Assembly: GCA_963575745.1 (NCBI GenBank)
Contig: CAUYUJ010019348.1
Span: forward strand, 671,728-735,727
DNA from: Prorocentrum cordatum
Lineage: Eukaryota > Sar > Dinophyceae > Prorocentrales > Prorocentraceae
Reading direction: 5' to 3'
Length of the DNA: 64,000 nucleotides
In this document: piece by piece, positions 4,277 through 37,202 of the stretch
Layout of the letters: the number at the start of each line of letters is the position of its first letter
Numbering within the stretch: position 1 is the first letter of the stretch
The notes under the pieces: model-generated
What the model saw: only the letters and a program-made list of their open reading frames with translations
What the model was told of the DNA's origin: nothing
The model's database searches: none
Position numbers and translations under genes: made by a program

Positions 4277-4476
4277 CGGGGGGGGAGGGAGACGAAGTGT
4301 GAGCCCGTGGCCCCTAGACAGCAGGCATATCAGCCAGCATACACAAGGACAGAAAAGGAACCGAGTTAAAACAAGTGGGCCCGCTAGCAAGTTGCCTCGC
4401 ATGTACGTGACGTACTCATCAGGCGGCGTCAGAACTTGATGCCTGGCCGGCCCGATATGAAGTATCTCTCTTCAGG
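4277..4476 (-). other. copia-A 3' untranslated region with polypyrimidine tract
   Basis: In sense orientation the bases next to the LTR (4277-4294) are a C/T tract, where a purine-rich plus-strand primer would normally lie. Copia-B has the same kind of tract at the same place (19883-19900). One 14-nt GNRA-type hairpin lies at 4387-4400 (sense GCGAG-GCAA-CTTGC), outside any coding sequence. Confidence 0.55.
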
Positions 4477-5184
4477 TCATGTTTGGAGGCTTGTATACCT
4501 CCCATGACTTGCAGGAGCATTTCTCTGTCGAATCTTCCTTCGGCGTGGCCATCCGCAGTCATATCGCGGGTGTCGCACCACTGAATGCTGTGCACGATTC
4601 CACGCTACATCAATCATATGTCGTATCCAACTGATGTGTCCTAAAAGGGCACGCGCAGTCGGCTTCTTCAAGTCTTTGCTTGACAAGGACTTACAAACAT
4701 ACTCAGCACCGATTGGCAAAATGACCTTGATGCTCAGGCCACCCAACTCATGTACATCTTTCAACTGAGTGGGCGCGAGCGGCCCCACGTGGAGCTCGTG
4801 TAGAGTCACAATCGTGGGATAACAGTCCTCCAAATTATGGGCTGCTGCCAGTGTCTCTGCTGAATAGCTCGAGCGGGCCTGCAGACGGTGAGACTTGCAA
4901 TGCGCATCAATCAAGTGAAGGGCAGGTTTACCGGATGACGTGCTTCTACGTCGTAGCAGGTTTGCCCCGCGAATACCATAGCCTTTGACGTCGTCATCGG
5001 CGTCTCCACTCAGGCGTCGATATTCTGAGGCGCTATGTAGGTCGACGTCGCCCGTAGGATTCGTCGCCTGGTAGACGATCTTCTTCGGGCAGGCCTGTAG
5101 CTTTCTGGTGATCGCGTTCAGTCGTCGCACTTGAATGTCGGTCGGTTCTTGGACGCGCTGTAGAGATGCAACATGCTCCATCAA
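4477..5184 (-). pseudogene. copia-A RNase H domain
   Basis: About 235 residues matching the copia-B RNase H throughout. It has the copia-type blocks S-S-Y-S-A-E-T-L-A-A-A and I-G-A-E-Y-V-C-K-S-L-S-S-K-D-L, and the C-terminal part degrades relative to copia-B. RNase H would degrade the RNA of the RNA:DNA hybrid during reverse transcription. It lies in the same frame as the RT and is separated from it by an in-frame TAG at 5191-5193. Copia-B has a TAA at the same codon. Probably inactive, given the other lesions in the element. Confidence 0.75.
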
Positions 5185-5190
5185 CCACGC

Positions 5191-6195
5191 CTAAGTGATT
5201 AGTGCATATGCCAGCGCACCCCTGAGGCTGACGAACATGTCTGCCGCCATCTTGGTTGCCCGAGCGTCAGCGTCGGCGCCAGTTAGTTCGGGATGTTGTA
5301 TGGGGCGGAACTGTCTGATATATTCATCTTGATCCAAAATGACATTGCCGTCCCCGTCCTTCGTGTATCTCACAGCACAATTGGTATACGTGTGCTAGTT
5401 GATTTTGCACTTACAAAAAGTATCTTCAATGCATTTGACATTTTTTTGTCTATGGTGTTTTCCGGCCATATTGATGTCATCAACGTGCTTCGCCGTGAAC
5501 AAATTGTTGCTCGTCTCGAACTCCTCGTCGTAGGACGTGGGTCGGAGACCGCATCCACTGGTGGTCCTCCTGAGCTTAAGTGAGAGAGCCCGTGGAGCGT
5601 CTTCGGTGCCTGTGCCTGATTTCAAGCACTGTAGACAGTGCTTTGACTCGTCGTAGTGCTCGAATCCTGGGAGAGTTCGGAGCGCTGTGGCCGATCCAGG
5701 CGGCAAAGTAAAACACACCACACGTTCATTTTCACCAGTAGCCTCAGCAAGTTCCCGATAGGTCAATCCCTTCAGGAAGGCCATGTTGATGTCGAAGGAA
5801 GCAATGGTCCACTGCTTCTTGCGCGCTGCCGTGCTTGCGAGCAACCTCTGGCTTGACCGTCTCTCAGTTCCCGAAAATGTTTCTACGTCGAAGGCTTCAA
5901 AATCCATGAAACCTCGGAGAACCAAGCGTAGTCGGATGGTACGTTCCATCTCGCCCTTCTCGTTCTTCACGAACTTCCATGCGTTCACGTATCTCGAGGA
6001 CATGATGTTCGACTATTTTGCTAACTCCTGCGTCTTAAACCATTTTCTGTCGAACCATGCCTGGAGTTCAGTGTAGAGGGCCTTCGATATTTTACCGGGA
6101 TTCGCCTGAATGTCAACTTCAGTGAAGAGGTCGTCTTCCTTGACGACCACAGCTCGCTTTGCAGCGGCGGCTACGTATACCCGCATAGTGGTCAC
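5191..6195 (-). pseudogene. copia-A reverse transcriptase
   Basis: One continuous frame apart from TAG codons at 5395-5397 and 6013-6015; copia-B has Lys and Ala codons there. The RT core is recognisable by R-L-V-L-R-G-F-M-D, D-I-N-M-A-F-L-K-G-L, V-V-C-F-T-L-P-P-G and the catalytic box K-H-V-D-D-I-N. Copia RTs usually have YVDD; His at the first position is shared with copia-B, so it is a lineage trait and not damage. Distal finger and thumb blocks follow (Y-T-N-C-A-V-R-Y, H-P-E-L-T-G). The enzyme would copy the element RNA inside virus-like particles. Confidence 0.8.
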
Positions 6196-6408
6196 CCGGC
6201 CGGCATCTTATATCATGTGTTGTTGCTCGGACAAGACTACCTTCGACGCTTCTGCCGTAAAGCATAGTTCGACATATCGACCATTTTCGTCTGAGTCGAG
6301 TCCGTAGCTGTCGTCTTCGACCATGGTGCACACATGGGGGCGTAGTACGTCTCCTCGGTGTCGGAGTCGCGAGTGCGCCCCCACTTCGGCAGGTGTCCCC
6401 GCTGTTCA
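6196..6408 (-). pseudogene. copia-A integrase-RT linker remnant
   Basis: In one frame it reads Y-Y-A-P-M-C and M-V-D-M-S-N-Y, which corresponds loosely to the acidic linker of copia-B at 21901-22365. The segment leads into the RT frame. No known domain is visible. Confidence 0.4.
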
Positions 6409-8738
6409 TCAGCTACAGTGATCAGCACACTTTGATCTGGAAATGTGTGTAGGCATGGCGAACAGGTCCTCTGGTGGAGTTGCCTCAAACAGTTCCCTTT
6501 CCTCTTGTAGTTCTGCATGCCACACCTCCATAACATGCGACTCAAGATCAGCCTCTGATTCTTCGTAGATCGTAGAGAGCCGTCCGTCATCATGTGATGG
6601 TTCGGCTTCTGAGGCTTCTCTTGTGGTTCCACCCGCTGTCTGTGTATCTGCCAATTCCTCAAATTCTGACATGTCCTGATCAAAACCTGCCTGAGGTTTA
6701 GTGGACTTCAAGCATTTGATAATTCGTGAAAATGCTGATCCAATTCTGTCGTGTGTATTCAGAGCAGTACATTCTACTTCATAATAATGAAATCCTGGAT
6801 CCACGTCGTTGTCATAATGGACCAATGCGCAGCTGTCGGCATAAGTAACCGGAGGCAGCTCAGGGATACCCATGGCTAGCCTGACAGGAACGACATTCTC
6901 AATGCGAAAGAAATTTCTAACAAGGTACTGTAGAGCCAAGTGTACCTTAGGAGATACACGGCTTGCGGTCGTCATCTGAAGCGCCCCTTGCTTGGTCGGC
7001 ACATAGCCAAAGGTCAAAGCAGGTCTCCCCGCTGATAGGCTGGCTACGACACTGTGCGTAGTGCAGTGCTGTCGGAGCCAATCTCTTGGGCTATGAGTGC
7101 TTCAATGTTTGACAGATGCCTTGCCTCGCCGTATTGTACTTGAACGTCTCGATTGCCCACTCGGATGATGACCTGACCCCTTTTCGGGATCATTCTTTCC
7201 AACTGGGGAAAGGCCATTCCAGCTTCCCCAATCATCCTTCGCGGTCGTAGGGCGATGGTAATCGACAACAAGTCTCTTTCCTCATAATCGCGCTGACCAG
7301 TAATAGTCGTCTTAGTGCGTAAGGCGCGATTGGTCTTAGCTGCTGCTGTGGCCTGTGTGATAGCTTCAATACATACCCTGCGTATCGTCTGCCCACGAGA
7401 ATTGTTTCCGTCGGCTGCTCGTGGTCCAAGACAGGTAGGTCCGGAAGCATTGCTGGTTGCCGTCCAAATAGAGTTTTGCATGGAGCCACCTCGCTATGAA
7501 AGGTGAACGCGCTGGCGGCGAACAGGGCCTCGTGCAGTAGTCGGGTGAGCACAAGAGGTATATCTAACCTATGGAGTTCAGCCTCCATGGCGTCAAGAAA
7601 ACGACGTAGGATGCCATTTCTGGCCTCGATCGTTGTAGCGCGCAATCAACGCGCGCTTAGTTCAGTGCCTTTTGCCTCGGGGACTGCTTTCGCAGTGTCG
7701 TTGGTAAGGGCGCCCTCTCCATCAGAGTAGAGTACCTTTGCCGGTCCAGACTGCATCCAGCACTGATGATATGCATCCAAGGTACCGGTCATAGTCTTGT
7801 CTGGTATCTCGATCCTAGTAGCATACCGTATACAGCGATCGATAATGTGGAAGATCTTGTGTTCTTGTTTGTAAAACATCAGATCACATTCCACCTCCTC
7901 ATTGAATTTGCTAGGTAGTGCAGTAGAAAGCATAACAGTGTGCCCAGGCTTGTCCCAAGCTCTGCATTCTCGGCATGTGTCGCTGACACCTGCTCATTAG
8001 GTTGAATCTGACACTGTCCAGACCTATCTTGCTTAAGACGAATATCATCTTAGGCTCCTTCGCATGGAACCAACGTAGGTGTAACTTTCGCAACTCGCGC
8101 TTTACCACGCTGGGGTCAAGGCTTCGTACGTTTTGTAAACTGATTTGTACATCGAACCGTGACCAGTCTGGTAGTCGTGGTCGTGCAGCAAGGTTCCCCG
8201 CCGGTGGTGGCGGAGGTGCTTCTCCACCTTGTTGTCGACCACGTCTGACTCTAACCTGTGGTAGCCGGAGATGGCCATCCGAACCACCAGCTCTACTCGT
8301 GGCAGGTCGCCCTGCAGCGGGCTCAGCTGCATGTCTTCCATCAATAATGTCGTGGCAGCTTGCGCTTGCGGTAGGTCCAGCTCCAGAGCCGGGTCTCGGT
8401 GCTCTCAGCCGCGTAAATGGTGATGCTGGTGGCGCCTCGGGTGGCGGTGCTGCTAACTCAGCAGGATCTGGTGGTGCAGGTCCTGCTGCCGGCTCGGCGG
8501 GAACCGGCGGTGTTTGTCCATGATTGTCGGGCAACTTCCAAGGCGCGGCAAACTTGCATTTGCCGGGTGCGAGTGCGCGCCCAGGCGTGTTCTTCCCGTA
8601 GTTCTTCTTAGAGCTCGGACATTCCCAATGGCAGTCACCCTTATCGCACCACCTGCAACGTCTCGGATCTTTATCATGAGAGGGAGAACGCATGTTAACG
8701 TCATCCGCGCATGCAGGACAAACGAGCCCTCCCGATGG
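6409..8738 (-). pseudogene. copia-A integrase, frameshifted, plus C-terminal linker
   Basis: Starts with a Cys/His cluster (C-P-A-C near 8730, C-R-W-C, C-H-W-E-C) equivalent to the N-terminal zinc cluster of copia-B integrase. The zinc-binding H-x3-H lies at about 8070. Catalytic-core blocks D-L-M-F, Y-S-D-G-E-G-A-L and I-E-A-R-N-G-I-L (D, D, E) are visible, but a frameshift separates the last from the first two near 7650. The C-terminal part (6409-7017, F-G-Y-V-P...L-A-L-Q-Y-L-V-R-N) is intact and ends in a frameshift near 6420. Hairpins of the GNRA family lie at 7019-7032, 8188-8201 and 8302-8315. Integrase would insert the cDNA into the genome. Confidence 0.75.
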
Positions 8739-8744
8739 TGGTCT

Positions 8745-8928
8745 CTAGGAGACCACGCGCGAACCCTACCCCTACCCCCCGCGGCTTCTGAAGGGGAAGG
8801 TGGGGTTCACTTCGTTCGGGTGCTCTCGAGCGAAGTGAACCCCGCCCTCCCCCTCAGAAATCGCGCGTGCGTGTGTGTATGTGCGTGTGTGGGGGGGGCA
8901 GGGGCGGGGTTCGCACGCGGCCCCCTAG
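8745..8928. repeat. Fold-back element inside copia-A
   Basis: Imperfect inverted repeat with arms of about 75-80 bp starting and ending at CTAG. The central 13-bp arms (GGGGTTCACTTCG and its complement) are perfect around a 16-nt loop; outward, the arms align as CGCGGCTTCTGA / CGCGATTTCTGA and GCGCGAACCCTACCCC / GCGTGCGAACCCCGCCCC. The right arm has gained a GT/GTGC microsatellite. It separates the end of the methyltransferase-like gene from the integrase; copia-B has only about 40 bp there, so this is an insertion into copia-A. Confidence 0.65.
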
Positions 8929-9721
8929 CGTCGTAATCGAGCCATCAGGTTGTCGAGGGAGACTCGGGTCATCCACATCGCATCCCCTTGCGTAATGGAC
9001 CAAAGCGGTGGGCGAATGCGGGTAGCCATGAAAAGGATCGCGAGTTACCTGGAAGAGGTCGTGTGCGACCTGAACAGCCTCGACGAAGAGTGACTGCATC
9101 TTCGAAGTATATTGTGCAGCCATGGACAGTTCCTTGTTACATACCGACGCGAATTGATACTGGCCAGTACATCGCTTCCGTTCAAAAAAGGGTGGATAAA
9201 ATACGATGGTCGGTCATGATACCGGTCGGCTTTCGTATCAGTACCCCATGGGAGTCACGTGAGCCAGTAGTGCATTGACCAATGTTCACCTTGCAAGTGC
9301 CCTTGCTTTTGGCCAACGTAGTCCATGGTGGTATCTGATCTACCCAAGTCCCCACTGGTTGTTCTCGTAAGTAGAATCGTCGAATATCATTTTGACGTAC
9401 AGCCACTTTCCCACATAATTTGAAATGTGGCACGTCGTACTTATGATGTGCATGCCAGGTGTCATAGTTATCCTTGGCACTGGCATAGGAAGGTAAAACA
9501 GTTGTTCTGCAGTTGGGCTGCAGTATGACAACCTTGACGAAACAAACGTCTAGATAATGCATCACTGCATCCTGGGCATCCTTGCTGACAAGGTCAACGA
9601 AGGCGCGTTTGCCGAGGTTTCCCCCTGAAGACAGACCTCGGCTGAATGCTAGTTGGGAGATGCCTCCACTTCCTACGCACAATTCTAACATTTCTACCTT
9701 GTTGCGTCGTCCGTAGCACAA
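8929..9721 (-). pseudogene. copia-A methyltransferase-like protein, second part
   Basis: Begins in frame as M-L-E-L-C-V-G-S-G-G-I-S, a motif-I-like nucleotide/SAM-binding turn, followed by S-R-G-L-S-S-G-G and V-D-L. A second half has R-E-Q-P-V-G-T-W-V, a G-Q-C-T-T-G block and R-K-P-T-G-I. From memory, this pairing of blocks (E-x-P-x-x-W, Q-C-x-x-G, K-P-T) recurs in proteins of dinoflagellate copia-like elements; its activity is not established. Copia-B has the same protein at 24617-25374. The frame is lost at about 9182 and recovers at 9123 down to the fold-back insertion. Confidence 0.45.
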
Positions 9722-9729
9722 GGTGGGGA

Positions 9730-11290
9730 TCAGGAGAATACGTCTGCATAGGATTCAGCAGGTTGCCCCGCAAGTAGCGTGATGAAGGTCTCCTCTCCAT
9801 CGTCGCAATCCGTGTCGGAGTCCAGAGGTACGTCGGTGTAGTGCGTACTACATCCGTGTCCTTTCAGGTCGTCTCCACAGTCGTCGTTGCCTTCTTCGAC
9901 TATTTGGGGTATCTTGCGTGGTTTGATGCCAGCTTCTTTGTCTGCTTTATGTATTTTGTTGCATAATTCTGGCATCGGTTGGTAGTGCTGTCTGTTTCTC
10001 TGTCTCAGGTGAGCGAAGTGTCGGAAATTCGGGAATGGAGGGGACCACGCGGCCGCGCTGAATCGAAGGGGGAGGGGGACGATCATCGTCGATGATCGCC
10101 ACTCGCCTTGAGCGTGGACGTGAGCTGCCAGCTCCCAAGAGAGTCGGTTCCGGCTGCTCCCAGTACAAGCGGGTACGGATGTTGGTAACACCATTGGGTA
10201 ATGGTGCGTTGGAGTTGTGCCCGATAGGCTGGTCCTGGATCTTGATGTCTTGGATGATCGCGTTGTCGTCCAGCTTCATCGTCACCCGTCTAACAACATG
10301 GTCCCACTCGGGACCATTCTTAGGAGACTGAACGTACGTTCGAGCTCCTCTATCACTTCGAGTATGGATACTGAGATGTACAGCACTTGTGTGATTTCTT
10401 TGCTTTTTATGTAGATCTATTTGATCCATTAGCCTTGCGGCCATGATCGCTAGCGTCTTGTTGCGCCATTCGGCCTTCTGAGCACCTTGTCCATACCAAT
10501 CTAGAATATGCTCAATAGGTTCTGCAGGATTCCCTGCTACGTTGCATGCGCATCACCATAGGTTGGTCGGGATGCGCGTGCACGCAGTCGCCACTTGCAG
10601 ATATGATCCACTGGGCAACGTGTTAGCGCGGTCGTACTTGCGGCCGAAGTGGCAGAAACGCGTACGCATGACTTGCAAATCAAGATCTTCAACAGCTTCT
10701 CGTATGGGACCTTGTTTCCAAAAGTGCCCAGGTGGTCCCACAAGTACAGTGGTCATGCGTAGTGCCCGAGCCTTGGACATCAAATTTTGGATGCGCTGGT
10801 AGTGTGGCCCTGCCCTCTTACCAGGCAGCCTCACATGCCAGCTAGCAGGTGTTGCCACCCACAACAGTTGGTGATCGCCCGAGAGTAATGCACCCAAATA
10901 CTGTGTACCAGTGGAAGTCATTACCTCTGTATGTGTAATACGGTCACACATGTATCCACGGGCTCGGAGTTCAGCGCAAGCTGTCCGTATATCCTCAATG
11001 ACAAATGCACGAGAATGATAATGATGCGACAATCCTTGTTTTTCTGCAGCGGCCACGCAGCCGGGTCCACTGGCGTTCGTGGCAGCCGCGCAGCCGGGCT
11101 TGCCACGGTCCCTGGCGCGCACTGCCGGTGCCTGAGAAAAGTATGCAGGTTCCCCCGCGTTTGCTGACAGGACCTGAGTGCGCGGCCTGTCTGAGCAAGC
11201 GCGAGTGGCCGTGGCACGCGCCTGCCCCCGTCACTCGTTCGGCGATGGGGGCGTCCAAATGCCTGTGCCATGCTGCTCTGCAGAGTCGCT
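9730..11290 (-). pseudogene. copia-A methyltransferase-like protein, first part
   Basis: Three frames together match copia-B 25378-26748. The first (10553-11122) holds A-F-V-I-E-D-I-R, V-G-P-P-G-H-F-W-K and R-F-C-H-F-G...P-S-G-S-Y-L-Q-V-A-T. The second (9947-10444) holds V-R-R-V-T and T-R-L-Y-W. The third (9730-10194) holds the acidic tail E-E-G-N-D-D-C-G-D-D-L. The C-H-F-G ... S-x-x ... T pattern resembles the Q-C-x-x-G ... K-P-T pattern of the following protein, so the two may be paired domains. Frameshifts lie near 10550 and 10190. Hairpins at 9758, 10524 and 11145. Confidence 0.4.
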
Positions 11291-11324
11291 GCTCGAAGTA
11301 AAAATATCAAACTTCTCAACGGCA

Positions 11325-13554: not shown

Positions 13555-13587
13555 GGAGGGGGCCAGATACCCATAGTGAGGTATCTG

Positions 13588-21900: not shown

Positions 21901-22365
21901 TCAGATTTTGAGTTCAGTGTACAAAGCTTCACTAACCTCTTTTGGATGTGCTGCTATGTCGGCGTTGGTGAGTAGGTCATCTTCTTTGACTACCACAGGA
22001 CGTTTAGCAGCAGAGGATACATATACTCTCATCGTTGCGACAATATCGGTGTCGGGCTGTGCAAGTTGAGTCTGATCCAACACTACCTTTGACATTTCTG
22101 ATGTAAAACATAACTCAATATAGGGACCATATTCATCACTGTCAAGAGAGTAGCTCTCGTCAGGTGTGGTTGAGCAGAGAGAGACCAGACAGGGCTCTCG
22201 TGGTTCAGGCTCGTCTCCGAGCGTGTCCGATAATACGATATCTTCTTCGTCCACAGATGCTGAAACCAAAGCACATTGGTCGGGCAGCATGGTTGTTGGG
22301 ACGCAGTAGAGATAATCGTCGGTAGTTGTCGTAGGATGAAGTCCATACGTAACTCGTCGCACCAC
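21901..22365 (-). CDS. copia-B acidic linker between integrase and RT
   Basis: About 154 residues, rich in Asp, Glu, Ser and Thr, ending V-V-V-K-E-D-D-L-L...A-L-Y-T-E-L-K-I. Part of the Pol polyprotein; no catalytic motif. It is out of frame with the integrase (shift near 22345) and in frame with the RT, from which one TGA separates it. Hairpin at 22209-22222 has a GAGA loop. Confidence 0.6.
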   Translation of the reverse strand: MVRRVTYGLHPTTTTDDYLYCVPTTMLPDQCALVSASVDEEDIVLSDTLGDEPEPREPCLVSLCSTTPDESYSLDSDEYGPYIELCFTSEMSKVVLDQTQLAQPDTDIVATMRVYVSSAAKRPVVVKEDDLLTNADIAAHPKEVSEALYTELKI

Positions 22366-24614: not shown

Positions 24615-24616
24615 CT

Positions 24617-25374: not shown

Positions 25375-25377
25375 ACA

Positions 25378-28680: not shown

Positions 28681-31600
28681 ATCTGCTGCTCTGGGATATA
28701 CCCGCCGCTCTCTCCAATACCGTCTCGGAGGGCATGAAGGCTGCTGGGGGAGCTCCTGATGGATCCAGCACCTCCGGCACCCCGGCAGCTGGCACGGAGG
28801 CTGTAGGCGTCACAGCGGGCGAGTTTCCTCGCAAGGGCGAGCCTCTATTTCTCACAACCTCAAGTGCGGCTGCAAGTGAATGATCACGTACGTTCTGCAC
28901 GGCCTGTCTGCGCCTAAAGCATGCCCGTTGAGTGTGGCATGTCTGCCTGATATAATCAGGCACACCTCTACTGCCAGACGATATCGAATGGGCAGTGGGC
29001 TGGACAGCCACATCTGGCGTCGTCGGCGCAGGCATAATGGCCATGTGCGGATACATTGACTGATCACTACAGCGCACGTTAGTGAGGCTGTGGAACTGAT
29101 CCGCCATTTCACGAACAAACTTGTTCGGGACTCTAGACCCATCAGGGTACAGTGGCGGATTCATGCGTGCTGGCGGTGGCCTCTGGCCCTGGGCCATGCT
29201 CGGGTGAGCATTGAAGGCTGGGATGAAGGCTCGCTGCCGAGCAGGATCCATTGGATTGGGACCCTCAGGCTCCCAGGACCAGGCCGGCCTCCACCTCTGA
29301 CCACTCGGGTGAGGCAGATTGTGGCTCTGCACCTGCTGCACAGCGGCCGCCACTCTTGCACGGTAGTTATCAGGCACACCAGCGACTGTGGTTTGTCCAG
29401 CAAACGGTCGATGATGGCTTGGAGTGCCGGGCAGGTTTCCCTGCTGACTCGTTGGAGTGCCGGGCGGCATCATGTTCAGGAGAGCTGTGCCATGCTCGGC
29501 CCTGGCCGCTGCGATCCTCTCCATGAGAGTGCCGTTCGTGGCAGGGCGGCCAGGAGTCCCGAACGGAGACTGTGCAGGTGGCGTAGCCATTGGGGTCATG
29601 CCCTTCGGTGTGTGCATACTCTGCGAGGGGCTACCATGCATCTGCTCAAATCGAGCAGGCTCTCCAAAGATGCGGCCGAACGTCTGCGGGTCTCCCTGCG
29701 GCTCAGGCATCTCAGCTCTGAGTCCATTTATAGGCAGGTTTCCCTGCATGGCCTGACGATTTCGCGTCGCCATGGCGGACATTGCTCCCTGGCCAGCGGC
29801 CCAGGGGTCTTGTTGGTATAACCTGTCCGCCAATTGCTCCACCTGTTCAGGGTTCAGAGCGGCCGCTATCTGGTCCAAGTCCGAGGTGCTGATGGCCTGC
29901 CAAGACACGGCGCTGGGCCCTTGGCTTGGGGCTCGGCTTGGAGCCGCGCTCCCGGCCTCGCTCTCGGTGATCATGAAGATCTGATGGACCTCAGGCTGGT
30001 TTCCCAGCGTGGCGGGACTGTAGTGGTCCCCAACCTCCCTGTGGAGGTAGACCATGGGAGGGTCGACGCCCTCTTGGTCGCGGGACCACTGGTATTCGAC
30101 GCTGGCACTGCCAACGTCAGCCCACCTGCCAGGGGCTGAAAGCATGGCGGGGGGGACTCGCGCCTGGCGATCCCCCATGTCCTCGGGATTGCGCCAGTGC
30201 TTCCCCGTGGCAAGGTCCTCTACATGGGAAATGTAGTACGGTTCGATGATACCGTTATTTCCCTCGGACAAAAGGACTCCGTTCTCAGACCAACAGAACT
30301 TCATACCATCTTGCATGGCCTTGTGCCAATGTACGAAGATGATGATGTCGGAGTCTGGGTCCCACCCACTGTCTACGGCACGACGGCGGACCGTCGGCAC
30401 GAACTGGATGCGCGACCGGCCTGTCCCCCGTTTCTTCGTGTTGTGCTCGGGTCTACAGGACAAGCCGTGCCGCATAATGCCTTCGAAGGCACCCCACCGA
30501 GTGCCATGCATGGCGACCTCGGGGTACGGGGCTGGTCTCCCGGCAAGTTGGTCGCACAGTACAATATAATTGTACAGCGACCATGGAGCTTTCAATGTCC
30601 ATGAATGCCCCTGAGAGGCGCGGATGAAGATCTCGGGCTCGCCGGAGTCCCGCGCTAACACCTTGAACTGAAGGCGTTCTTTTTCTTCTCCGTCTGGTTC
30701 ACGGACATGAGCCACTTCCATCATGATGGCCGCCAAATGGTCCACCGATCGACCATATAGGTTCGCGGTGATGACCTTGGCCTCGTCATGTCTGGGATTG
30801 TACCCATCATGCCTCGATCGCCCGGTTTTCCATGGATACTTATTCACGAGCTCTACAAGGTTAATCCAGCCATCATGATCATCGAATGTAGCTAGATCCC
30901 ACACAGGATCATGTGCTCTATCCGGCGCATGTCTGCATATCCTACTGAGAGCTTTGCTCAGTTGTTTGAGGGTGTGATTGGATCTTGGGATAATGTTGTC
31001 TTGCCTGCATTTTCGCATGAATTCCTCATCCACCGAGCGTATCGGTGGAAGATTTCGCAGAGCAAGTCTATCCCTGACCACACTCGGACTGTCACTGGTG
31101 AAAGACGTGTCTCCTGGGCGGTGCAGCTGATCCACGGGCGGGTTTCCCCGCGCAGGAGCCTCTGTCGCTGAAGAGGCTGCGGCTCCTGAAGAGGAGGAAG
31201 CTGCAGCGGCAGCGCCAGGCGGGTTTCCCCGCGGTGATCCGCGACTGGCGCTACCCCTAATCGTCGGCACCCAGGTACCCCTAGACAGAGCACCTTCGTC
31301 GGATCTTTTGGAGCGGGCCGCCGCAGGCGAAGCTGGCGCAGGGGCGTACCCTGTGCGCTCGAAAGCCATCGCCTTCTTAGCAATGGAACTGCTGCGACTA
31401 GGCGGGCGTCTCCGTTCCTCCCCAGGGTCCTGAGGTTGCTGCTTGGGCTCAGATCCTTGTGCTGGAGTTGCGCCAATCGGTGATCTCGGCGTTTCGGAGT
31501 GAGGCGCCTCCATGTGCACATCTGGCCCAAGGTCCTCAAAGCGTGCTTTCGGTTTCACTTCCGAGGACAGCTTCGGCGCTAGGGTTTCACTCTTAGCCTT

Positions 31601-32536
31601 CGATTGTAGTGGGAGCGGGGGCTTCTTAGCCCCCTTCATGTAAATCTTTTGGGAGTCCATCAGCATTTGGCGAGTTGCCTCGCGTGTGCGTTCTTCTGCT
31701 ATTCGCATGCGTTCCTCATCCGCCTCAACTCGCTGGGCCTTCTGTTCATCCTTGGTTGCTAGCCCTGGTTGTTGTGACTGGCTGGAGACGCCGGGCGAGT
31801 TTCCTCGCATTCCAGGAAGACTAAAGAGCGTGTCTTTTTCTTCCTGGGTCATGGGCACCAGTCCCCGTGGAGCCGGAGGAGGCTTATCCTCTTCGTCTTT
31901 CGGCTCCACGTGACCCATGATCCCGAGACGACGATTGATCTCTGCGATCTCGTCCTGCGTCATGGGGATCAGTGGCGGATGGCCCTCCTTATGAGGAGTT
32001 TTACCCCTGTTTGGGCTCAGACATTCATTATTTCCTACGGGGCATCCCGGCCTGTGGTTCGGGAACGGCTGGGAACAAGGTCCGCAAGCTGCTTGAGGCC
32101 TATACAACTTGCGAGCCGCGATAACGTTTCGCAGCTGTGTCCGCACTTCTTCAATTTCAGGGCGGCGGATGTTTGTTGCCAGTTGATATCCTCCGCGGAT
32201 GGCCTTACCCTGGGCGCCCCTATAGGCAGGGTTGCCCTTGCCGAAGGCCGAGTGTTCCCCTTTACGGCGTCTTGGGCCATTGCCTATACTCTCGAGGAAG
32301 CCGCGCCTGTGGATGTGGCTCTCCTCTGACACGCGGATGGGAACGAGACCTTCCAACATTCTCATCAGAAGAGGCTGCCGAAGCAGCCTGATCGGAAGCC
32401 GGCGGAGGCGCCTGCGGAGGCTCCTGTGCGATCCCAGGTGGATCGGCCAATAGAGGCAGGTTTCCCTGCTGGCTGGAGCTCGGCGCAAATGGCGCTTGTG
32501 CCGATGGTGATGGTGCTTCAGGCTCGTCAGGATCAA
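28592..32536 (-). CDS. copia-B Pro-rich protein with Tpt1/KptA-like RNA 2'-phosphotransferase domain
   Basis: 1314-codon open frame; the first 70 or so residues overlap gag in another frame and are probably not used. Order: a Cys-rich patch (C-G-P-C...G-C-P-V-G-N-N-E-C), Met/Glu/Gln-rich charged segments repeating P-M-T-Q-D-E-I/P-M-T-Q-E-E-K, a Ser/Pro/Ala linker, the Tpt1-like domain (residues about 515-785), then a long Pro/Met/Gln-rich tail. It overlaps gag by 275 nt and the RING gene by 89 nt, each time at a +1 offset, suggesting frameshift expression. Thirteen hairpins lie in it (28819-32456). A homologue is present in copia-A. Confidence 0.75.
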   Translation of the reverse strand: MILTSLKHHHHRHKRHLRRAPASRETCLYWPIHLGSHRSLRRRLRRLPIRLLRQPLLMRMLEGLVPIRVSEESHIHRRGFLESIGNGPRRRKGEHSAFGKGNPAYRGAQGKAIRGGYQLATNIRRPEIEEVRTQLRNVIAARKLYRPQAACGPCSQPFPNHRPGCPVGNNECLSPNRGKTPHKEGHPPLIPMTQDEIAEINRRLGIMGHVEPKDEEDKPPPAPRGLVPMTQEEKDTLFSLPGMRGNSPGVSSQSQQPGLATKDEQKAQRVEADEERMRIAEERTREATRQMLMDSQKIYMKGAKKPPLPLQSKAKSETLAPKLSSEVKPKARFEDLGPDVHMEAPHSETPRSPIGATPAQGSEPKQQPQDPGEERRRPPSRSSSIAKKAMAFERTGYAPAPASPAAARSKRSDEGALSRGTWVPTIRGSASRGSPRGNPPGAAAAASSSSGAAASSATEAPARGNPPVDQLHRPGDTSFTSDSPSVVRDRLALRNLPPIRSVDEEFMRKCRQDNIIPRSNHTLKQLSKALSRICRHAPDRAHDPVWDLATFDDHDGWINLVELVNKYPWKTGRSRHDGYNPRHDEAKVITANLYGRSVDHLAAIMMEVAHVREPDGEEKERLQFKVLARDSGEPEIFIRASQGHSWTLKAPWSLYNYIVLCDQLAGRPAPYPEVAMHGTRWGAFEGIMRHGLSCRPEHNTKKRGTGRSRIQFVPTVRRRAVDSGWDPDSDIIIFVHWHKAMQDGMKFCWSENGVLLSEGNNGIIEPYYISHVEDLATGKHWRNPEDMGDRQARVPPAMLSAPGRWADVGSASVEYQWSRDQEGVDPPMVYLHREVGDHYSPATLGNQPEVHQIFMITESEAGSAAPSRAPSQGPSAVSWQAISTSDLDQIAAALNPEQVEQLADRLYQQDPWAAGQGAMSAMATRNRQAMQGNLPINGLRAEMPEPQGDPQTFGRIFGEPARFEQMHGSPSQSMHTPKGMTPMATPPAQSPFGTPGRPATNGTLMERIAAARAEHGTALLNMMPPGTPTSQQGNLPGTPSHHRPFAGQTTVAGVPDNYRARVAAAVQQVQSHNLPHPSGQRWRPAWSWEPEGPNPMDPARQRAFIPAFNAHPSMAQGQRPPPARMNPPLYPDGSRVPNKFVREMADQFHSLTNVRCSDQSMYPHMAIMPAPTTPDVAVQPTAHSISSGSRGVPDYIRQTCHTQRACFRRRQAVQNVRDHSLAAALEVVRNRGSPLRGNSPAVTPTASVPAAGVPEVLDPSGAPPAAFMPSETVLERAAGISQSSRCGSFHWDGRYLCGMSRRISAQGKCLPFEV
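30180..30985 (-). other. Tpt1/KptA-like RNA 2'-phosphotransferase domain in copia-B
   Basis: Blocks in family order: L-S-K-A-L-S-R-I-C-R-H-A (the L-S-K-x-L-S-x-x-L-R-H start of Tpt1), D-G-W-I-N-L-V-E-L-V, R-L-Q-F-K-V, I-R-A-S-Q-G-H-S-W (signature R-A-x-Q-G-H-S), M-H-G-T-R-W-G-A-F-E-G-I-M-R-H-G-L, S-R-I-Q-F-V (H-I-H-F in typical members), D-S-G-W-D-P-D-S-D-I-I-I-F-V, then G-M-K-F-C-W-S-E-N-G-V-L-L-S-E-G. Known enzymes use NAD+ to remove the 2'-phosphate left when tRNA-type ligases join RNA, via an ADP-ribosylated intermediate. The R-H, Q-G-H-S and S-x-N blocks are kept; the H-x-H is replaced. Confidence 0.8.
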
Positions 32537-35504
32537 AGTCCACCTCTACCTCACCGTTGACTTCCATCATGAGGATTGTGGCTTCGTCCTCGCCTAGCCC
32601 GCAACCGTCGCCCTCTTCTTCTTCTGATGTAGAACTACCAATAATGATGGCCATTGGCGCAGCCGGGACAGGCAGGTTTCCCTGCATAGCCGGCGCCTGT
32701 GCGTCGCTCGGCTGTCCCGGGGTAGGAGGTGCGGTTGTCGGCTCAGGCTCGTTGCCGAGCACAGGCTGCCCAACAATGTTACGCATGGCCGTGTTATTTG
32801 GCCATAGTCCCGCCGCCTGGAGACCCCATCCTGGCGGAGGAAGAGCCTGGCCGCGCATGGCGATGACCCTTTCAAGGGCATCGTGCCATCTCCCTCGGGA
32901 GTACCACACATGCCTCTGCACGTCCTCAGGGCGCACGCTGTCGATAAGGGTCAAAGCTGCCAACACTAACTCCGAGTCGTCACAGGCATCCGTGTCCTGC
33001 AGCATCATGATGCCAGCTTCGATGCTTTCTTGACTCTCGGGGTATGCGATGGGCAATACCTCGTGCATCCTCATGAGGGTTTGCAGTAGTGTGCGTGGTC
33101 CGTACTCGCCTGGAGCAAGCGAACCAGGGGGTACAAATGGGACCTCTGGTGCGCCTGCAATGAAAGCTTGAACGAACGCTTGAGACTCCATTTCTATAAG
33201 TTCATCGTTATTTCGGGGATAGATAGGCCTGCTTCCAGGCGGGAGTTCGGGAGGAGGTTGGAGGTTGCGGTCAACCTCTGAAGGCGAGGCCTCTACAGTG
33301 ACGTCCTCGTCACTGCTCTCGTAGGCCATGATGTTGCCTGGGTTCCCGAACATCCAGTCGAAGAAAGATAAAGGCTGGTTTCCCAGCGTTCCGTGTTCCA
33401 CGGGAGTGAGCTCGTTGTTGCCAACAACGAACCTGCGGACGCACTCGAGATAGTACGCGTACAATCCATGACCATACGCCTCGAGCTCGTCGACGTTGTC
33501 CATGCAAGTGGCCCAAGTGTAAAATATCTGTTCCATGGCCTCAAAATCTTGGAGGCTCAGATATTCGATGAATGGTCCACTTGAGCCAAAATGGACCTCG
33601 GTCGATCTGCCCTTTCCATTTCCCTTCGCTGGACAATCTCTCACAAGATGGTCGGTACTGTCGCACTCATGGCACTTAAGAACCTGGCCGTCTCTACCTC
33701 GCGGGTTTCCCCGCCTACCCTTGCCTTTTCCTGAAGTCTCTCTACGGCCTTTGCCACGGCCCTTTCCCCCGAAGAATATCTCATCATATTGTTCATCTGA
33801 GAGCCTCTGGAGGAATGCCGCGATGCCTCGTCCGTTCAACCTCCGACGGCCTCGTTTACCTTTACCTTTTCCTTTGAAGCTCCTCCGTATCCTCCTCCTA
33901 ACACGACGCACTGGTTTTCGCGCGAACCTCCTCCACCTCCGTTTAGCCTGTTGTAATAACCAAAACAAGTGTTCAGCACGCTGATTGCCATTATCCATAT
34001 TCACGATATCTGACCAATCGAAAGCTTCAACACCGTCTGATGATATAGTAGCTGCGTCGGTGCCGGAGTCGAAATCCTCGTCTCCCAAGTAGGTGGATAC
34101 ACCGTCGGCTAGGGGGTTTGATTCACCCCATAGAGAACGGTGTGGTTGAGGTTCTCTAGAAGGAGGGCTGGTTGCCCAGCTTGGTTGTGATCGATCTCCT
34201 GCTAGTAAAGCAATGGATTCTCCAGGATCATCGGCCCATATGCTTGAGGGCCCGTTTCCAGGCTGGGCTTCAGTGGTTAAGGTAGTGTAGAAATTCCAAC
34301 TACCAGATCCCCTTCCCCTTCCAAACACAGATCCTATGTTGCCAGGAGACCGTTCTGATAGGTGACCTATAGAACGCGTCCTCTCGAGCAACTCATCATG
34401 CTGTTGTTGTGTTCGGGGCATTTGATGATTGAGTGGCTGCAAGGGTTGCATGGCTCGCTGGTTGCCGACGCCTAAGGCGCGGAACAGGATCGTGGTTAGT
34501 AGTTGGAAGTTGGGATGGTCAAGCCCCACCGACTGTGCCTCAAGTCGGGCCATTTCGAATCGGGTAAGAGTGACATCGTTTCGTTCTCCGCGAGGCACGT
34601 GGAAGTCGATGAACTGTGCGCCGGAAGTGAGCTGGCGCTCATCTTCCAGGCGCTCGAACTTCATGCTTAAGAGGAACATGATGTAGGTCACTGGGTCGGT
34701 GTGGACCCCATCGATGTCAGCACCATAGTTGATAATGTCAGGCGGTACCCTCATGGCGAGTGTCCTCGCTAGGCCACCCAGGCCGCGTTGTATGGCGGCC
34801 GCTTGGGCCTGTGGCGTCATGCGTCCGCTTGTGACGTTGAGCCACGCGTTGCCCTCATAAACGTACTCGCGGAAAGGTACGTTGCCTTGAGGGTCCCAGT
34901 ATGGGCCATGTGTTTGCCCATCGGTGCTGTTGTCTCCACGACGCATGCGTCCGATTGCTGCCCCCAGCGCGAACCATATGATAGCGAAGATAACCAGCCC
35001 AAGGCTGTGTAAATAGGGGTGGTTATTAGGCGCGTTGCCGCGCTGGAGTAGCGCCTTGTCGAGTCTTCGAGGCGCTCTATCTGGCGGATATCTCCGCCCA
35101 TGCTTCAAGTGCTGCGCTTTTGGCTCGTTGCCGAGCGGTTGGTAGTAGCGCAATGATGAAGCATATATGGTACCGATGTTGTTGTCTAGACGTCGTACCT
35201 CTCGTGTTGCTTCTTGCGCTTGGATAGATCCTCGTAAACGTACTGGGAGTGGTAGCGCAGGGTGGTAAGTGGTCACGAGGATCGTGCCGAAGAGTACAAG
35301 GATGAGAAGAGCAAGAGCTGACCACACGAGAGCGCGGCCAGCTCCGCTACCAAGTCGAAAAAGAGCCTGGTAGGTCAAATAGCATCCGTCTCCATGGGAG
35401 GCGGATGACCTCACATTGCATCCAATTCCATGTCGAAGGAATACGACACGGGGAGTGGATGGGTATGATAGGATAAGATCGATGTATCGGTCTTTCCAAT
35501 ACAT
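32262..35504 (-). CDS. copia-B Gag with two membrane segments and a zinc knuckle
   Basis: The ATG at 35504 lies inside the 5' LTR and the frame runs through the primer-binding site, giving about 1080 residues; a later start is possible. Two hydrophobic segments occur at residues about 58-79 and 166-186, the second conserved in copia-A. Then come the Gag core M-T-P-Q-A-Q-A-A-A-I-Q-R-G, K-F-E-R-L-E-D-E-R-Q-L and P-N-F-Q-L, a highly basic region (about 517-555: R-R-W-R-R-F-A-R-K), Gly-Lys-Gly repeats, and a C-x2-C-x4-H-x4-C zinc knuckle near residue 610. The acidic C-terminal third ends at 32262. It packages the element RNA; membrane association is inferred. Eleven hairpins lie in this frame. 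Confidence 0.8.
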   Translation of the reverse strand: MYWKDRYIDLILSYPSTPRVVFLRHGIGCNVRSSASHGDGCYLTYQALFRLGSGAGRALVWSALALLILVLFGTILVTTYHPALPLPVRLRGSIQAQEATREVRRLDNNIGTIYASSLRYYQPLGNEPKAQHLKHGRRYPPDRAPRRLDKALLQRGNAPNNHPYLHSLGLVIFAIIWFALGAAIGRMRRGDNSTDGQTHGPYWDPQGNVPFREYVYEGNAWLNVTSGRMTPQAQAAAIQRGLGGLARTLAMRVPPDIINYGADIDGVHTDPVTYIMFLLSMKFERLEDERQLTSGAQFIDFHVPRGERNDVTLTRFEMARLEAQSVGLDHPNFQLLTTILFRALGVGNQRAMQPLQPLNHQMPRTQQQHDELLERTRSIGHLSERSPGNIGSVFGRGRGSGSWNFYTTLTTEAQPGNGPSSIWADDPGESIALLAGDRSQPSWATSPPSREPQPHRSLWGESNPLADGVSTYLGDEDFDSGTDAATISSDGVEAFDWSDIVNMDNGNQRAEHLFWLLQQAKRRWRRFARKPVRRVRRRIRRSFKGKGKGKRGRRRLNGRGIAAFLQRLSDEQYDEIFFGGKGRGKGRRETSGKGKGRRGNPRGRDGQVLKCHECDSTDHLVRDCPAKGNGKGRSTEVHFGSSGPFIEYLSLQDFEAMEQIFYTWATCMDNVDELEAYGHGLYAYYLECVRRFVVGNNELTPVEHGTLGNQPLSFFDWMFGNPGNIMAYESSDEDVTVEASPSEVDRNLQPPPELPPGSRPIYPRNNDELIEMESQAFVQAFIAGAPEVPFVPPGSLAPGEYGPRTLLQTLMRMHEVLPIAYPESQESIEAGIMMLQDTDACDDSELVLAALTLIDSVRPEDVQRHVWYSRGRWHDALERVIAMRGQALPPPGWGLQAAGLWPNNTAMRNIVGQPVLGNEPEPTTAPPTPGQPSDAQAPAMQGNLPVPAAPMAIIIGSSTSEEEEGDGCGLGEDEATILMMEVNGEVEVDFDPDEPEAPSPSAQAPFAPSSSQQGNLPLLADPPGIAQEPPQAPPPASDQAASAASSDENVGRSRSHPRVRGEPHPQARLPREYRQWPKTP
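33580..33602 (-). other. Spliced-leader-like sequence inside copia-B gag
   Basis: In sense, ACCG, five bases, then CATTTTGGCTCAAG; the last 15 bases (CCATTTTGGCTCAAG) match the 3' part of the dinoflagellate spliced leader exactly. It is translated in frame as T-E-V-H-F-G-S-S, just after the zinc knuckle. Copia-A does not keep it at the aligned place. Confidence 0.45.
35341..35352 (-). promoter_or_regulatory. copia-B primer-binding site
   Basis: Sense TGGTAGCGGAGC directly after the 5' LTR, with no spacer. Its complement ends in CTCCGCTACCA, as expected for a tRNA acceptor end with CCA, and is close to the 3' end of eukaryotic initiator tRNA-Met, the usual copia primer. Related sites: 35791-35802 (copia-A), 37191-37202 (copia-D), 58714-58725 (copia-C). 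Confidence 0.8.
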
Positions 35505-35622
35505 AGCGAACACTAAGGTAAGTGTCCGGGCAAATAGGGCGCGCGTGCCTTGAGCCAAAGGCAACGGCGCGCGAGCTATACTCCCGATACTATAACATCT
35601 CCCAAAGAGCTACCCTTAAAGT
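35353..35622 (-). repeat. copia-B 5' LTR
   Basis: 270 bp, paired with 19613-19882. The primer-binding site abuts it on one side and the ACCTT duplication on the other. Contains the Gag ATG (35504) and a stem-loop with spliced-leader-like loop (35541-35577). TGTTATAGTATC occurs about 20 bp inside the sense 5' end, resembling a usual copia LTR start, but both LTR copies extend beyond it. Confidence 0.9.
35541..35577 (-). promoter_or_regulatory. LTR stem-loop with spliced-leader-like sequence
   Basis: Sense GCGCGCCGTTGCC, loop TTTGGCTCAA, then GGCACGCGCGC: a GC-rich stem with two small bulges. The 19 bases CCGTTGCCTTTGGCTCAAG match the dinoflagellate spliced leader except for one substitution and a two-base gap. 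Copia-C has an equivalent stem with different sequence and a TGGTTCAA loop (near 58870-58905), and both are followed by CCCTATTTGCC. The copia-A 5' LTR has GTCGGCTCAAG at the same place. Confidence 0.6.
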
Positions 35623-35627
35623 ACCTT
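35623..35627. repeat. Target-site duplication ACCTT, right copy
   Basis: Matches 19608-19612. Copia-A gag continues immediately outside both copies. Confidence 0.85.
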
Positions 35628-35802
35628 TGCTTGGACAGAGGTATCGCTGCGAGTATCCTTGCGGTACTGCGTAGTTATATACATTCTTCCGCGCAATTCC
35701 ATTGCACCCTGATGTTCCACCATATTTGTAGTCCACCAGCTACTGCCGTGAATGGTGAGGAGTCGAGCTAGAGCTGACCACCATAGGCCAGCCCCGCTAC
35801 CA
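35628..35802 (-). pseudogene. copia-A Gag, N-terminal part, cut by copia-B
   Basis: Reads from the 5' LTR through the primer-binding site (K-L-G-S-G-A-G-L-W-W-S-A-L) to a segment that aligns with copia-B Gag (L-G-S-G-A-G-R-A-L-V-W-S-A-L) and stops at the copia-B insertion. The next copia-A residues, S-L-R-Y-Y-T-P, are found on the other side of copia-B near 19590. This continuity is the main evidence for nesting. Confidence 0.8.
35791..35802 (-). promoter_or_regulatory. copia-A primer-binding site
   Basis: Sense TGGTAGCGGGGC, one base different from copia-B, directly adjoining the 5' LTR at 35803. The same initiator tRNA-Met-like primer is inferred. Confidence 0.7.
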
Positions 35803-36070
35803 AGTTTGAAGGGGGCTGGAAGGCCCAGCCAACAACTTCGCCTCAGGCGAAGCCGAGCTCCCGCTCTGCTGTACCGTAGTAGCGATAGTCCCAGTATGAG
35901 AGGAGATGCCATCTCAAGCAATAGGAAGATCCGTTTGGTCTCGATAGCGATTGTGTGCCTCGCAATGAGGCGCAGTCATATTTGGGCGGCCGGCCGCTTG
36001 AGCCGACGCGGCCGCGGGCGCACGCTCGCTTCCACTCCTCACGTCCCTCAGCTCGCTGTATAATAAGAAG
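35803..36070 (-). repeat. copia-A 5' LTR
   Basis: 268 bp; matches 4053-4276 apart from a segment of about 36 bp present only here (about 35997-36035) that holds a GGCTCAAG loop between CGGCCG arms. The + strand starts AGTTTGAAGG and ends near TAATAAGAAG. The right edge is less certain than for copia-B because no exact target duplication could be found. Confidence 0.7.
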
Positions 36071-36545
36071 GCCAACATCAATGTCTTTCCTTAGTCGTTT
36101 CAAATGCCTTGCATTGGGTGTTTGAAGAATTTGGGCGTTTGCTCATGTTCCGCTTTCCCACTGCCCAAGATGGTCCCAGCGGCCACCAAGATGGCCCAGG
36201 AACTCCTCAGAAGCGGCCCCCGAGGTAGCCTCCTGACGGCCCAAGAGGATCCGAAGGCTACAAAGAGGTCCAAGGAAACCCCGAAGAGGCCCTCAGGAAA
36301 CTTCCAGGAGGCCGCAAGAGTGCCCCAAGAGGCTCCCAAGAGGCCTCCTTCTCCTCCTTCGCCTCCTTTTTCCTCCCTCTCCTCCTCGTTTTTTTCATCC
36401 CCACGTGTTCTCCGAAAGGTTTCAGCAACGGCTGGGGGTGCACATGATCCGATAGCCTGGCCGAGCTCTGGCCACAACGTTCGGCCACCTAGGTTCTTCC
36501 AACAAGCAGGGTGTGGCAATTCGCCGTAGGCGTTTTGATCCGCCG
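36071..36545. repeat. Satellite unit with family E copy 3
   Basis: Opens with TTTGAAGAATTTGGGCGTTTGCT, similar to the start of the unit near 3090, so copia-A landed in or beside this satellite type. CCCAAGATGG-like units lie at 36160-36350, a C/T tract at 36345-36400 and the conserved body at 36395-36545. Confidence 0.6.
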
Positions 36546-37202
36546 CCCCGCACGGCGATGTTGCGCGCACGGCCCCCTAACCCTCTCTGGAGAGCTGCAG
36601 TTTGCTGATGCGGGGCCATGCGAGCACCTGCGAAAGCCAGCCATTCGGTGATCATCGGCACATTCCTGTACGTTCCCAGCTGAATCCCAACATTGGGGGT
36701 CTGTTGTTGTCGCTGTCTCGATTACGGTGACTATGTCTGCTAACGGATCCATTGCACAACCATCTGAGAAAATAGATAACCGCCTCCACACGTTTCAGCC
36801 GTGAGTTAATTCTACTCAGGCGCATTTCCTCTAGCAATTCCCGTTTTCGTGAGTGCGGTCAAACGTCGAGGTTGGAGGCTTCGCACATTTCCGTGCGGTA
36901 TGTTTCCTGGCTCGGGTCGTTGGGACTTGGTGTCCGATTCTCCGCTCGGAGGGACTACAGGTCTGATGGGCTTGACGTGCGACAACACTATGAAAATATG
37001 TTGAACCTCGCATGTTGGCTCTGGTAAGTCGAGCTCGTGTCTAAGCTCATACCCGGAATCCATAATAGATCCACGGAATCGCGGATGGAGTTTGGGCCCT
37101 TAGTCGGGAGTGAAAGCGTTCACGTGGACCGTGCCAACAAAAACAAGCAGGTACGATCACATGGGGGGTAACCGCACGAGAGTGTGGCCAACTCCGCTAC
37201 CA
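36540..37202 (-). pseudogene. copia-D: gag fragment with primer-binding site
   Basis: Primer-binding site at 37191-37202 (complement of ACTCCGCTACCA). Downstream in sense, a Gag-like N-terminus reads T-K-T-G-I-A-R-G-N-A-P and, nearer 36600, R-M-A-P-H-Q-Q-T-A-A-L-Q-R-G-L-G-G, which matches the M-T-P-Q-A-Q-A-A-A-I-Q-R-G-L-G-G block of copia-B. One hairpin lies at 36883-36896 (sense GCACG-GAAA-TGTGC). The rest of the element is missing; satellite family E replaces it on the left. Confidence 0.6.

Follow-up and report, generated by a model that had tools for sequence, protein, structure and literature searches.

The window analysed here, a 64,000-nucleotide stretch of contig CAUYUJ010019348.1 of the dinoflagellate Prorocentrum cordatum (GC content 58.6% by base counts), contains two nested copia-type long terminal repeat (LTR) retrotransposons, termed A and B, both on the minus strand, with B residing inside A. 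Dispersed over the two elements are short hairpins with a stem of five base pairs and a loop of the GNRA class. As judged from the comparison of B with its copies in the same genome, these are RNA hairpins under purifying selection, with stem and loop class kept site by site. The coordinates of the elements and the hairpin sites are compiled in Table 1.

A and B are assigned to the copia type because the relatives of their integrase/reverse transcriptase (IN/RT) frames carry RVT_2 (PF07727), with the integrase preceding the reverse transcriptase; in B's own scanned frames Pfam yielded no match for integrase or RVT_2. The reverse transcriptase stretch of B aligns at 80% to the related protein P0029. 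With respect to membership in Ty1/copia, B shows an LTR pair (270 nucleotides each, 97% identical), the short target duplication AAGGT of 5 nucleotides on its flanks, and the primer site TGGTAGCGGAGCTGG, beginning with TGGTAGCGG, directly after the 5′ LTR. The LTR pair of A is 93% identical over the aligned pieces; the LTR ends and the target duplication of A are indistinct. Both elements have their domain order in common, with protein identities of 24-67%. One distant IN/RT relative is labelled in the database as Effrenium voratum, a dinoflagellate, and no relatives of the elements were present in the searched viral-contig and genome-contig collections. The first frame of B encodes a putative Gag with a strongly basic stretch and one zinc knuckle of the form C-x2-C-x4-H-x4-C, both recognised by eye; the Pfam knuckle matches in this protein score below the curated cut-off.

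Hairpins on the sense strand of A and B

A scan for the strict form GC-NNN-GNRA-NNN-GC, comprising GC ends, five standard pairs and a GNRA loop, returned 49 hairpins on the window's minus strand against a single one on its plus strand. Element B contributes 33 of the 49 and element A 14, 47 in total. With one step off pairing or off GNRA allowed (relaxed form), the number rises to 75 (45 in B and 30 in A), a few of which represent conserved protein sequence or chance. These counts bear out the original prediction, which had put the family at about 68 dispersed copies, all in element sense. When any stem of five base pairs with a GNRA loop was counted, the elements contained 60 in sense versus 9 in antisense orientation, and 30 dinucleotide shuffles gave a mean of 7.13 ± 2.05 with a maximum of 12; thus, both controls against which the excess was checked lie at background. 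By the same count the remaining 31,949 nucleotides of the window show no excess, with 9 versus 9 by strand.

As likewise predicted, the hairpins are found in all three frames, judged by the longest open frame, with the GGN-AAC frame prevailing in B, and in the 3′ untranslated region (3′-UTR), as three B sites are located beyond the last long frame. Their absence from the LTRs, also part of the prediction, is correct but carries little weight, since by our estimate only about 1.5 would be expected there. Local folding gives a mean pair probability of 0.77 over the 33 strict B hairpins, and a search of Rfam returned no match over the curated score in 4051-35995 on either strand. Positions 34756 and 23691 were dropped as hairpin sites, being conserved protein sequence with loops other than GNRA; 28170, with four pairs only, and 8097, with four pairs in A and five in its relative L033, were left off the list.

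The individual sites define a B motif sharper than first described, GC-NN-G-GNAA-C-NN-GC-C, with the closing pair G-C in 32 and a C as the base 3′ of the stem in 31 of the 33 strict B hairpins. The A motif, GC-R-GG-GNNA-CC-T-GC, is less varied, and its pair 3 is often G-U. Leaving the inner two pairs unconstrained, the B motif GCNNGGNRACNNGC matches 36 times in sense and not once in antisense orientation. Both inner pairs are Watson-Crick in 30 of these 36 matches, as compared to 5.6 on average and at most 15 when the partners were re-dealt in 10,000 shuffles. The same test is weak in A, where one stem dominates (both Watson-Crick in 4/15, P 0.04; 14/15 when G-U is admitted). Chance or base composition as the cause is ruled out by the shuffles, the antisense counts and the matching of the inner pairs.

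Pattern counts in the window's own genome (4,128,499,153 bases) yielded 5,935 matches for the first paired motif (loop GAAA) versus 91 for its reversed control, and 6,025 versus 848 for the second (loop GNRA), while one mispaired combination of both stems (loop GNRA) remained near background with 917 versus 667. The three isolated genome matches that were inspected (L001, L027, L028) all belong to the A family.

Table 1. Elements, LTRs, putative Gag frame and hairpin sites in the window
Feature	Positions	Strand	Basis or remarks
Element B, copia-type LTR retrotransposon, 16.0 kb, inserted in A	19613..35622	-	LTRs, target duplication, primer site, IN/RT relatives
Element A, related copia-type LTR retrotransposon, split by B	4051..35995	-	LTR pair, domain order, protein identity to B
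B 5′ LTR	35353..35622	-	
B 3′ LTR	19613..19882	-	
A 5′ LTR, aligned part	35801..35995	-	
A 3′ LTR, aligned part	4051..4245	-	
B first frame, putative Gag	32262..35564	-	position, basic region, C-x2-C-x4-H-x4-C knuckle
B hairpin	35123..35136	-	
B hairpin	35084..35097	-	loop GATA here but GNRA in L029, L031; pair 5 changed on both sides
B hairpin	35030..35043	-	
B hairpin	34250..34263	-	A hairpin (18680) at equivalent protein position, one base shifted
B hairpin	34167..34180	-	
B hairpin	33701..33714	-	
B hairpin	33374..33387	-	
B hairpin	33227..33240	-	GAAG loop; both-side change T-A/C-G in L029, where pair 5 is broken
B hairpin	32747..32760	-	
B hairpin	32672..32685	-	
B hairpin	32456..32469	-	
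B hairpin	31795..31808	-	both-side change A-T/G-C in copies
B hairpin	31670..31683	-	
B hairpin	31219..31232	-	
B hairpin	31138..31151	-	
B hairpin	30531..30544	-	one C-A mismatch; perfect in L029, L031
B hairpin	29995..30008	-	
B hairpin	29734..29747	-	
B hairpin	29686..29699	-	one mismatch; outside diversity and pair counts
B hairpin	29431..29444	-	
B hairpin	29229..29242	-	GCAG loop; GCAA in 14/18
B hairpin	28819..28832	-	
B hairpin	28329..28342	-	both-side change A-T/G-C in 3 copies
B hairpin	28248..28261	-	
B hairpin	27765..27778	-	
B hairpin	27732..27745	-	GAAG loop; GAAA in 17/19
B hairpin	27197..27210	-	
B hairpin	27108..27121	-	
B hairpin	26843..26856	-	
B hairpin	26665..26678	-	
B hairpin	26049..26062	-	A-C mismatch; A-T in 17/19
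B hairpin	25791..25804	-	LGDE peptide in P0029
B hairpin	24709..24722	-	AAAA loop; GNRA in other 18
B hairpin	24200..24213	-	
B hairpin	22876..22889	-	shares its protein position with A (7019) and C (L035); peptide also in P0029
B hairpin	22469..22482	-	
B hairpin	22209..22222	-	GAGA loop
B hairpin	21571..21584	-	within reverse transcriptase domain
B hairpin	20784..20797	-	
B 3′-UTR hairpin	20177..20190	-	GAAA loop 17/17; stem kept save one U-G; flanks differ
B 3′-UTR site	20151..20164	-	one mismatched pair; paired (T-A) in 4/17
B 3′-UTR hairpin	20000..20013	-	
A hairpin	19507..19520	-	
A hairpin	18680..18693	-	AGQPA also in P0016; lost in L027
A hairpin	18513..18526	-	GCAG loop (GCAA in L027); AGQPA also in P0016
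A hairpin	17801..17814	-	second pair U-G (C-G in L027)
A hairpin	17244..17257	-	GAAG loop; broken in L027
A hairpin	16661..16674	-	pair 3 G-U in A, A-U in L027
A hairpin	16079..16092	-	absent from this place in L027; another lies a few bases off there
A hairpin	15668..15681	-	one of three at 24-nucleotide steps
A hairpin	15644..15657	-	one of three at 24-nucleotide steps
A hairpin	15620..15633	-	one of three at 24-nucleotide steps; GCAT loop (GCAA in L027)
A hairpin	14323..14336	-	GACA loop
A hairpin	14173..14186	-	
A hairpin	14000..14013	-	
A hairpin	13370..13383	-	one mismatch
A hairpin	13343..13356	-	GACA loop
A hairpin	12839..12852	-	
A hairpin	12725..12738	-	GGCA loop
A hairpin	11605..11618	-	GACA loop
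A hairpin	11338..11351	-	GGCA loop
A hairpin	11145..11158	-	
A hairpin	10524..10537	-	GAAT loop (GGGA in L033)
A hairpin	9758..9771	-	
A hairpin	9293..9306	-	GGCA loop
A hairpin	8302..8315	-	
A hairpin	8188..8201	-	GAAC loop
A hairpin	7019..7032	-	protein position as B 22876
A hairpin	6389..6402	-	GACA loop
A candidate hairpin	4592..4605	-	GAAT loop
A hairpin	4387..4400	-	final one before 3′ LTR

Constraint on the hairpin sites in copies of B

Twenty stretches were fetched around motif matches, of which 18 belong to the B family (79-92% to B by BLAST) and two, L027 and L028, to the A family; the latter were excluded from the B alignment. The alignment of B with the 18 copies (pairwise identity 77-99%; L022 trimmed by 1,900 nucleotides) allowed the comparison of 23 B sites. 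Mean pairwise diversity was 0.034 within the hairpin sites versus 0.122 outside. Resolved by codon position, the values inside and outside the hairpins were 0.023 versus 0.072 at first, 0.038 versus 0.054 at second and 0.040 versus 0.234 at third positions, the last corresponding to an approximately six-fold reduction; in the 3′-UTR, 0.036 compares with 0.144. Because diversity collapses inside the hairpins at third codon positions and in the 3′-UTR, these data argue for selection at the level of the RNA, in agreement with the original prediction. A protein motif was rejected as the cause of the conservation, since the constraint extends to third codon positions and to the 3′-UTR.

The constraint tracks the hairpin base by base: diversity ranges from 0.000 to 0.052 in the stem (mean about 0.017), reaches 0.139, 0.089 and 0.067 at loop bases 2, 3 and 4, amounts to 0.059 at the C after the stem and rises to 0.335 at the next base. 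Loop changes at the same site mostly stay within GNRA (GAAA, GGAA, GTAA, GCAA, GAGA), while single copies at other sites have GNNG, AAAA or other loops. At site 28329, nine copies (L009, L014, L016-L019, L021, L023 and L024) carry the non-GNRA GNNA loops GACA, GATA or GGCA on an intact stem; GNNA loops of this kind are also used by A at several sites.

The pairs themselves are largely preserved. In the 3′ half of B, 2,115 pair cells comprise 2,041 Watson-Crick, 48 G-U and 26 broken pairs, and in the 5′ half, where four sequences and 18 sites were compared, 350 cells comprise 332, 6 and 12, respectively. L032, the 5′ part of which aligns unlike the others, was excluded from the 5′ count, and site 29686 is in neither. 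Cells with a broken pair, the kind of uncompensated change that the prediction had named as a point of refutation, are few. The claim of covarying stems stands for the comparison between sites and between elements; within orthologous sites the stems are mostly invariant, with changes on both sides of a pair at only four sites (28329, 35084, 33227 and 31795). With the stems so constant, the evidence for pairing comes mainly from contrasting different sites and different elements, together with these four both-side changes.

Related elements and proteins

An A-family copy, present in L027 and L033, keeps most A sites, with pair 3 swapping between G-U and A-U. A third family, C (L035), consists of one open frame of 2,199 residues with approximately 65-68% DNA identity to A and B. 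Its GC-ended hairpins number 7 in sense versus 3 in antisense orientation, the closing pair is G-C in 5 of the 7, and one of its hairpins is located at an AGKPA place common to A, B and C. Family C is abundant in the window's own genome, as exemplified by G000:C2:1713198-1713746 (query with the reverse transcriptase, 150 of 8,206 first-look candidates scored). Moreover, two antisense GC-ended GNRA hairpins lie 15 nucleotides apart on the reverse strand at L035:3059-3087 (reverse-strand coordinates 6415 and 6430).

Among the related proteins, P0029 is 66-80% identical to B over three stretches and covers ten B sites, at nine of which its peptide is compatible with the hairpin, as read by eye from the alignment. 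A G[ND] peptide corresponds to GGN-AAY or GGN-GAY, that is, to a GNAA or GNGA loop. The peptide pairs of B and P0029 include LGNE/LGDE, PGNR/PGDR, RGNT/HGDV, HGNA/HGDV, AGKPA/AGKPA and EETR/EATR; the pair RGNS/RGSS would imply a GNAG loop. In addition, peptides of this kind recur within single proteins: P0016, an A-like Gag, contains AGQPA four times, three at A sites and one extra, P0034 contains PGNR seven times, P0030 HGNV four times, and P0025 HGNV and HGDV three times each.

In 25 family proteins, the codon choice allows a stem of at least 4 pairs at 92 of 315 G[ND] sites versus 52 expected, the P of 1.6e-8 being an overstatement, as related proteins repeat the same sites; in 15 outgroup proteins the count is 20 of 116, with 20 expected. 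After removal of conserved GN columns, by which some true sites are lost too, 27 of 87 sites were Watson-Crick-compatible (P 0.002) and 41 of 87 when G-U was admitted (P 5e-6). The middle codon bases around G[ND] pair in 62 cases versus 41.4 expected, the controls giving 166 versus 157.3 and 209 versus 239.9. From the peptides alone we infer that the metagenome relatives P0029, P0030 and P0034 may carry such hairpins. Some hairpin-compatible peptides of related proteins imply other stems or loops. The hairpin pattern of P0034 has one match in the window's own genome, in a stretch (L034) that matches neither A nor B, and for this reason P0034-like relatives are known as proteins only.

Several further features of the elements deserve mention. 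B encodes an RNA 2′-phosphotransferase-like domain (Tpt1/KptA, PF01885, 9.4e-21; 28592-32536, minus strand), which LTR retrotransposons do not usually carry; the alignment of A to this stretch is weak. A RING finger domain is encoded in B at 26749-28680 (minus strand); in P0017 it is on the same protein as the Gag-like part. A long conserved region with ELCGG...PSC motifs precedes the integrase (B 24657-26750, minus strand; P0029 residues 1-650), and beyond RVT_2 no Pfam match over cut-off was found in P0029. The ELCGG...PSC region is reminiscent of a methyltransferase. The dinoflagellate LINE and DIRS elements with methyltransferases are elements different from A and B (PMC5890265). Outside the elements, the window contains microsatellite or tandem arrays at 59695-60022, 53123-53482, 52825-53124 and 62706-63583, and a gap of 100 N at 53526-53625.

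Candidate readers of the hairpin array

In the full-length sense RNA each hairpin would present a stem of five base pairs, usually closed by G-C, and a GNRA or sometimes GNNA loop. Because the stem letters vary by place and loop base 2 is free, a reader would most likely recognise the shape of the hairpin together with the fixed letters, that is, the GC ends, the G-C closing pair, the loop A and, in B, the 3′ C. The most likely reader would be the element's own putative Gag, since it combines a basic stretch with a knuckle, and since Gag must find its own RNA; many weak sites over 16 kb would allow it to select and condense its genomic RNA, much like the dispersed packaging signals of some RNA viruses. 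We consider it roughly an even call, leaning slightly to the negative, that the hairpins act in cis and are read in this way by Gag.

Several observations weigh against this interpretation. The distant Gag relatives P0017-P0019 keep the basic stretch and the knuckle (by eye), yet the outgroup set that includes them lacks the peptide excess. The 42 sites listed along B have a mean spacing of 369 nucleotides, and their placement is not significantly more regular than chance, as a fraction of 0.08 of the random placements reach the observed value or a lower one. Antisense GC-ended hairpins of B, many of which complement the same sites, fold locally nearly as well (0.57). Among the one-sided changes at orthologous sites, 25 types disrupt a pair, as against 15 that yield G-U. 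Moreover, L027 has lost the A sites 18680, 17244 and 16079, and family C is much poorer in hairpins, with 11 in sense versus 4 in antisense orientation in 9.5 kb when stems of five base pairs with GNRA loops are counted.

A narrower version, which we regard as possible but rather unlikely, takes the hairpins as a family-specific RNA barcode: those of each giant-element family would be read by its own Gag, so that each of the rival families in one cell would package its own transcripts. Stems and loops differ between the families as expected of an element-specific code, with RGG/CCT in A, stems of several kinds with GAAA plus a 3′ C in B and, by their peptides, mostly GNGA in P0029, PGNR in P0034 and HGNV in P0030. 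The hairpin set would then be renewed by joint change of reader and hairpins.

Any trans-acting reader of the hairpin fold would be compatible with the constraint map, sites span coding sequence and 3′-UTR alike, and no element protein has been tied to the hairpins so far. A host RNA-binding protein, which might serve nuclear export, stability or translation of the very long RNA or shield it from host surveillance, would accommodate these points, but the lack of an excess in the rest of the window and the differing stems and loops of A and B, hard to explain by a single host reader, make it unlikely. Somewhat less probable still is a role in cis only, by which the hairpins would compact the 16-kb RNA, dock their loops in helices or provide folds that aid the reverse transcriptase. 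GNRA loops are classic tertiary contact elements, and the hairpins are predicted to form locally; against this, loop base 2 varies among copies at the same site (GAAA, GTAA, GGAA, GCAA), unlike in loop-specific receptors, and such a role does not account for the conserved C that follows the stem in B.

The repetition of one stem in A (GCRGG/CCTGC), the fourfold AGQPA in P0016, the sevenfold PGNR in P0034 and the three A hairpins at 24-nucleotide steps could suggest a very small selfish module multiplying within the element, with conservation as the residue of recent spread. We consider this improbable, as the sites are kept across copies that are 77-99% identical while their neighbours change, and the flanks, in which duplications were sought by eye, have no common sequence beyond the motif. 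In addition, the well-aligned B sites 22876 and 21571 show no matching insertion, the hairpin being present without length change (AGKPA versus AGKTPE in relatives at the former, GEETR versus GEQER, GEKER and GENER at the latter). A clean empty hairpin site was not found at well-aligned places; many sites lie in variable linkers. Sites of RNA cleavage or ligation tied to the RNA 2′-phosphotransferase domain would fit the presence of this domain in B and the weak alignability of A there, but are very improbable given that long frames pass through the hairpins and that the stem is short. A signal at the DNA level, such as a cruciform or a protein site in double-stranded DNA, would fit in that every comparison was made on DNA, but the strict sense orientation, the G-U pairing in A and the GNRA loop class of the sense strand render it the least probable explanation.

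Searches of open-licence PubMed Central papers aimed at dispersed GNRA hairpins in retrotransposons turned up no description of such an array. Their nearest functional likeness would be the dispersed packaging signals of RNA viruses, two marks of which are seen here: many stem-loops with a shared motif, and conservation in relatives beyond coding need. The signals of MS2, satellite tobacco necrosis virus (STNV), parechovirus and enterovirus E likewise comprise many short stem-loops or sites over coding RNA with a shared recognition motif; there, contacts with the coat protein were measured, whereas the present array belongs to an LTR retrotransposon, has GNRA loops and is known from sequence. 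The genomes of RNA viruses with dispersed packaging signals are far shorter than these elements. In retroviruses and Ty1, the selectivity of RNA packaging is usually ascribed to a single region close to the 5′ end. Ty1 resembles A and B in being a copia-type element whose Gag has a basic RNA-binding region, and its Gag reportedly prefers RNA with one packaging signal, a 5′ pseudoknot being involved (PMC8396678). Unlike in Ty1, the putative signals described here are spread over the whole element, and the putative Gag also has a knuckle, which Ty1 Gag lacks.

The boxB hairpin of phage lambda, with a stem of five base pairs and a GNRA-like pentaloop, is read by the short arginine-rich N peptide at few sites and serves transcription. 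It is similar in stem length and GNRA-like loop and differs in the pentaloop and the few sites; no relation is claimed. The byp elements of yeast mitochondria are small mobile hairpins repeated many times. The mobile hairpins of sponges (RHE) are again small and many times repeated, as are those described here (PMC2800124). Such organelle elements sit in mitochondrial DNA, whereas the present hairpins occupy retrotransposon genes in a single orientation, are maintained by selection and showed no insertion.

Taken together, the hairpin array points to an unrecognised signal in the RNA of these elements. The motifs recur thousands of times in their own genome, and fitting peptides are present in related metagenome elements. 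Dozens of small and strongly conserved hairpins, arrayed over coding as well as non-coding parts, would represent a different route by which a retroelement marks its RNA. Moreover, synonymous sites in transposon genes that are under selection at the RNA level affect the dating of such elements and Ka/Ks work on them.

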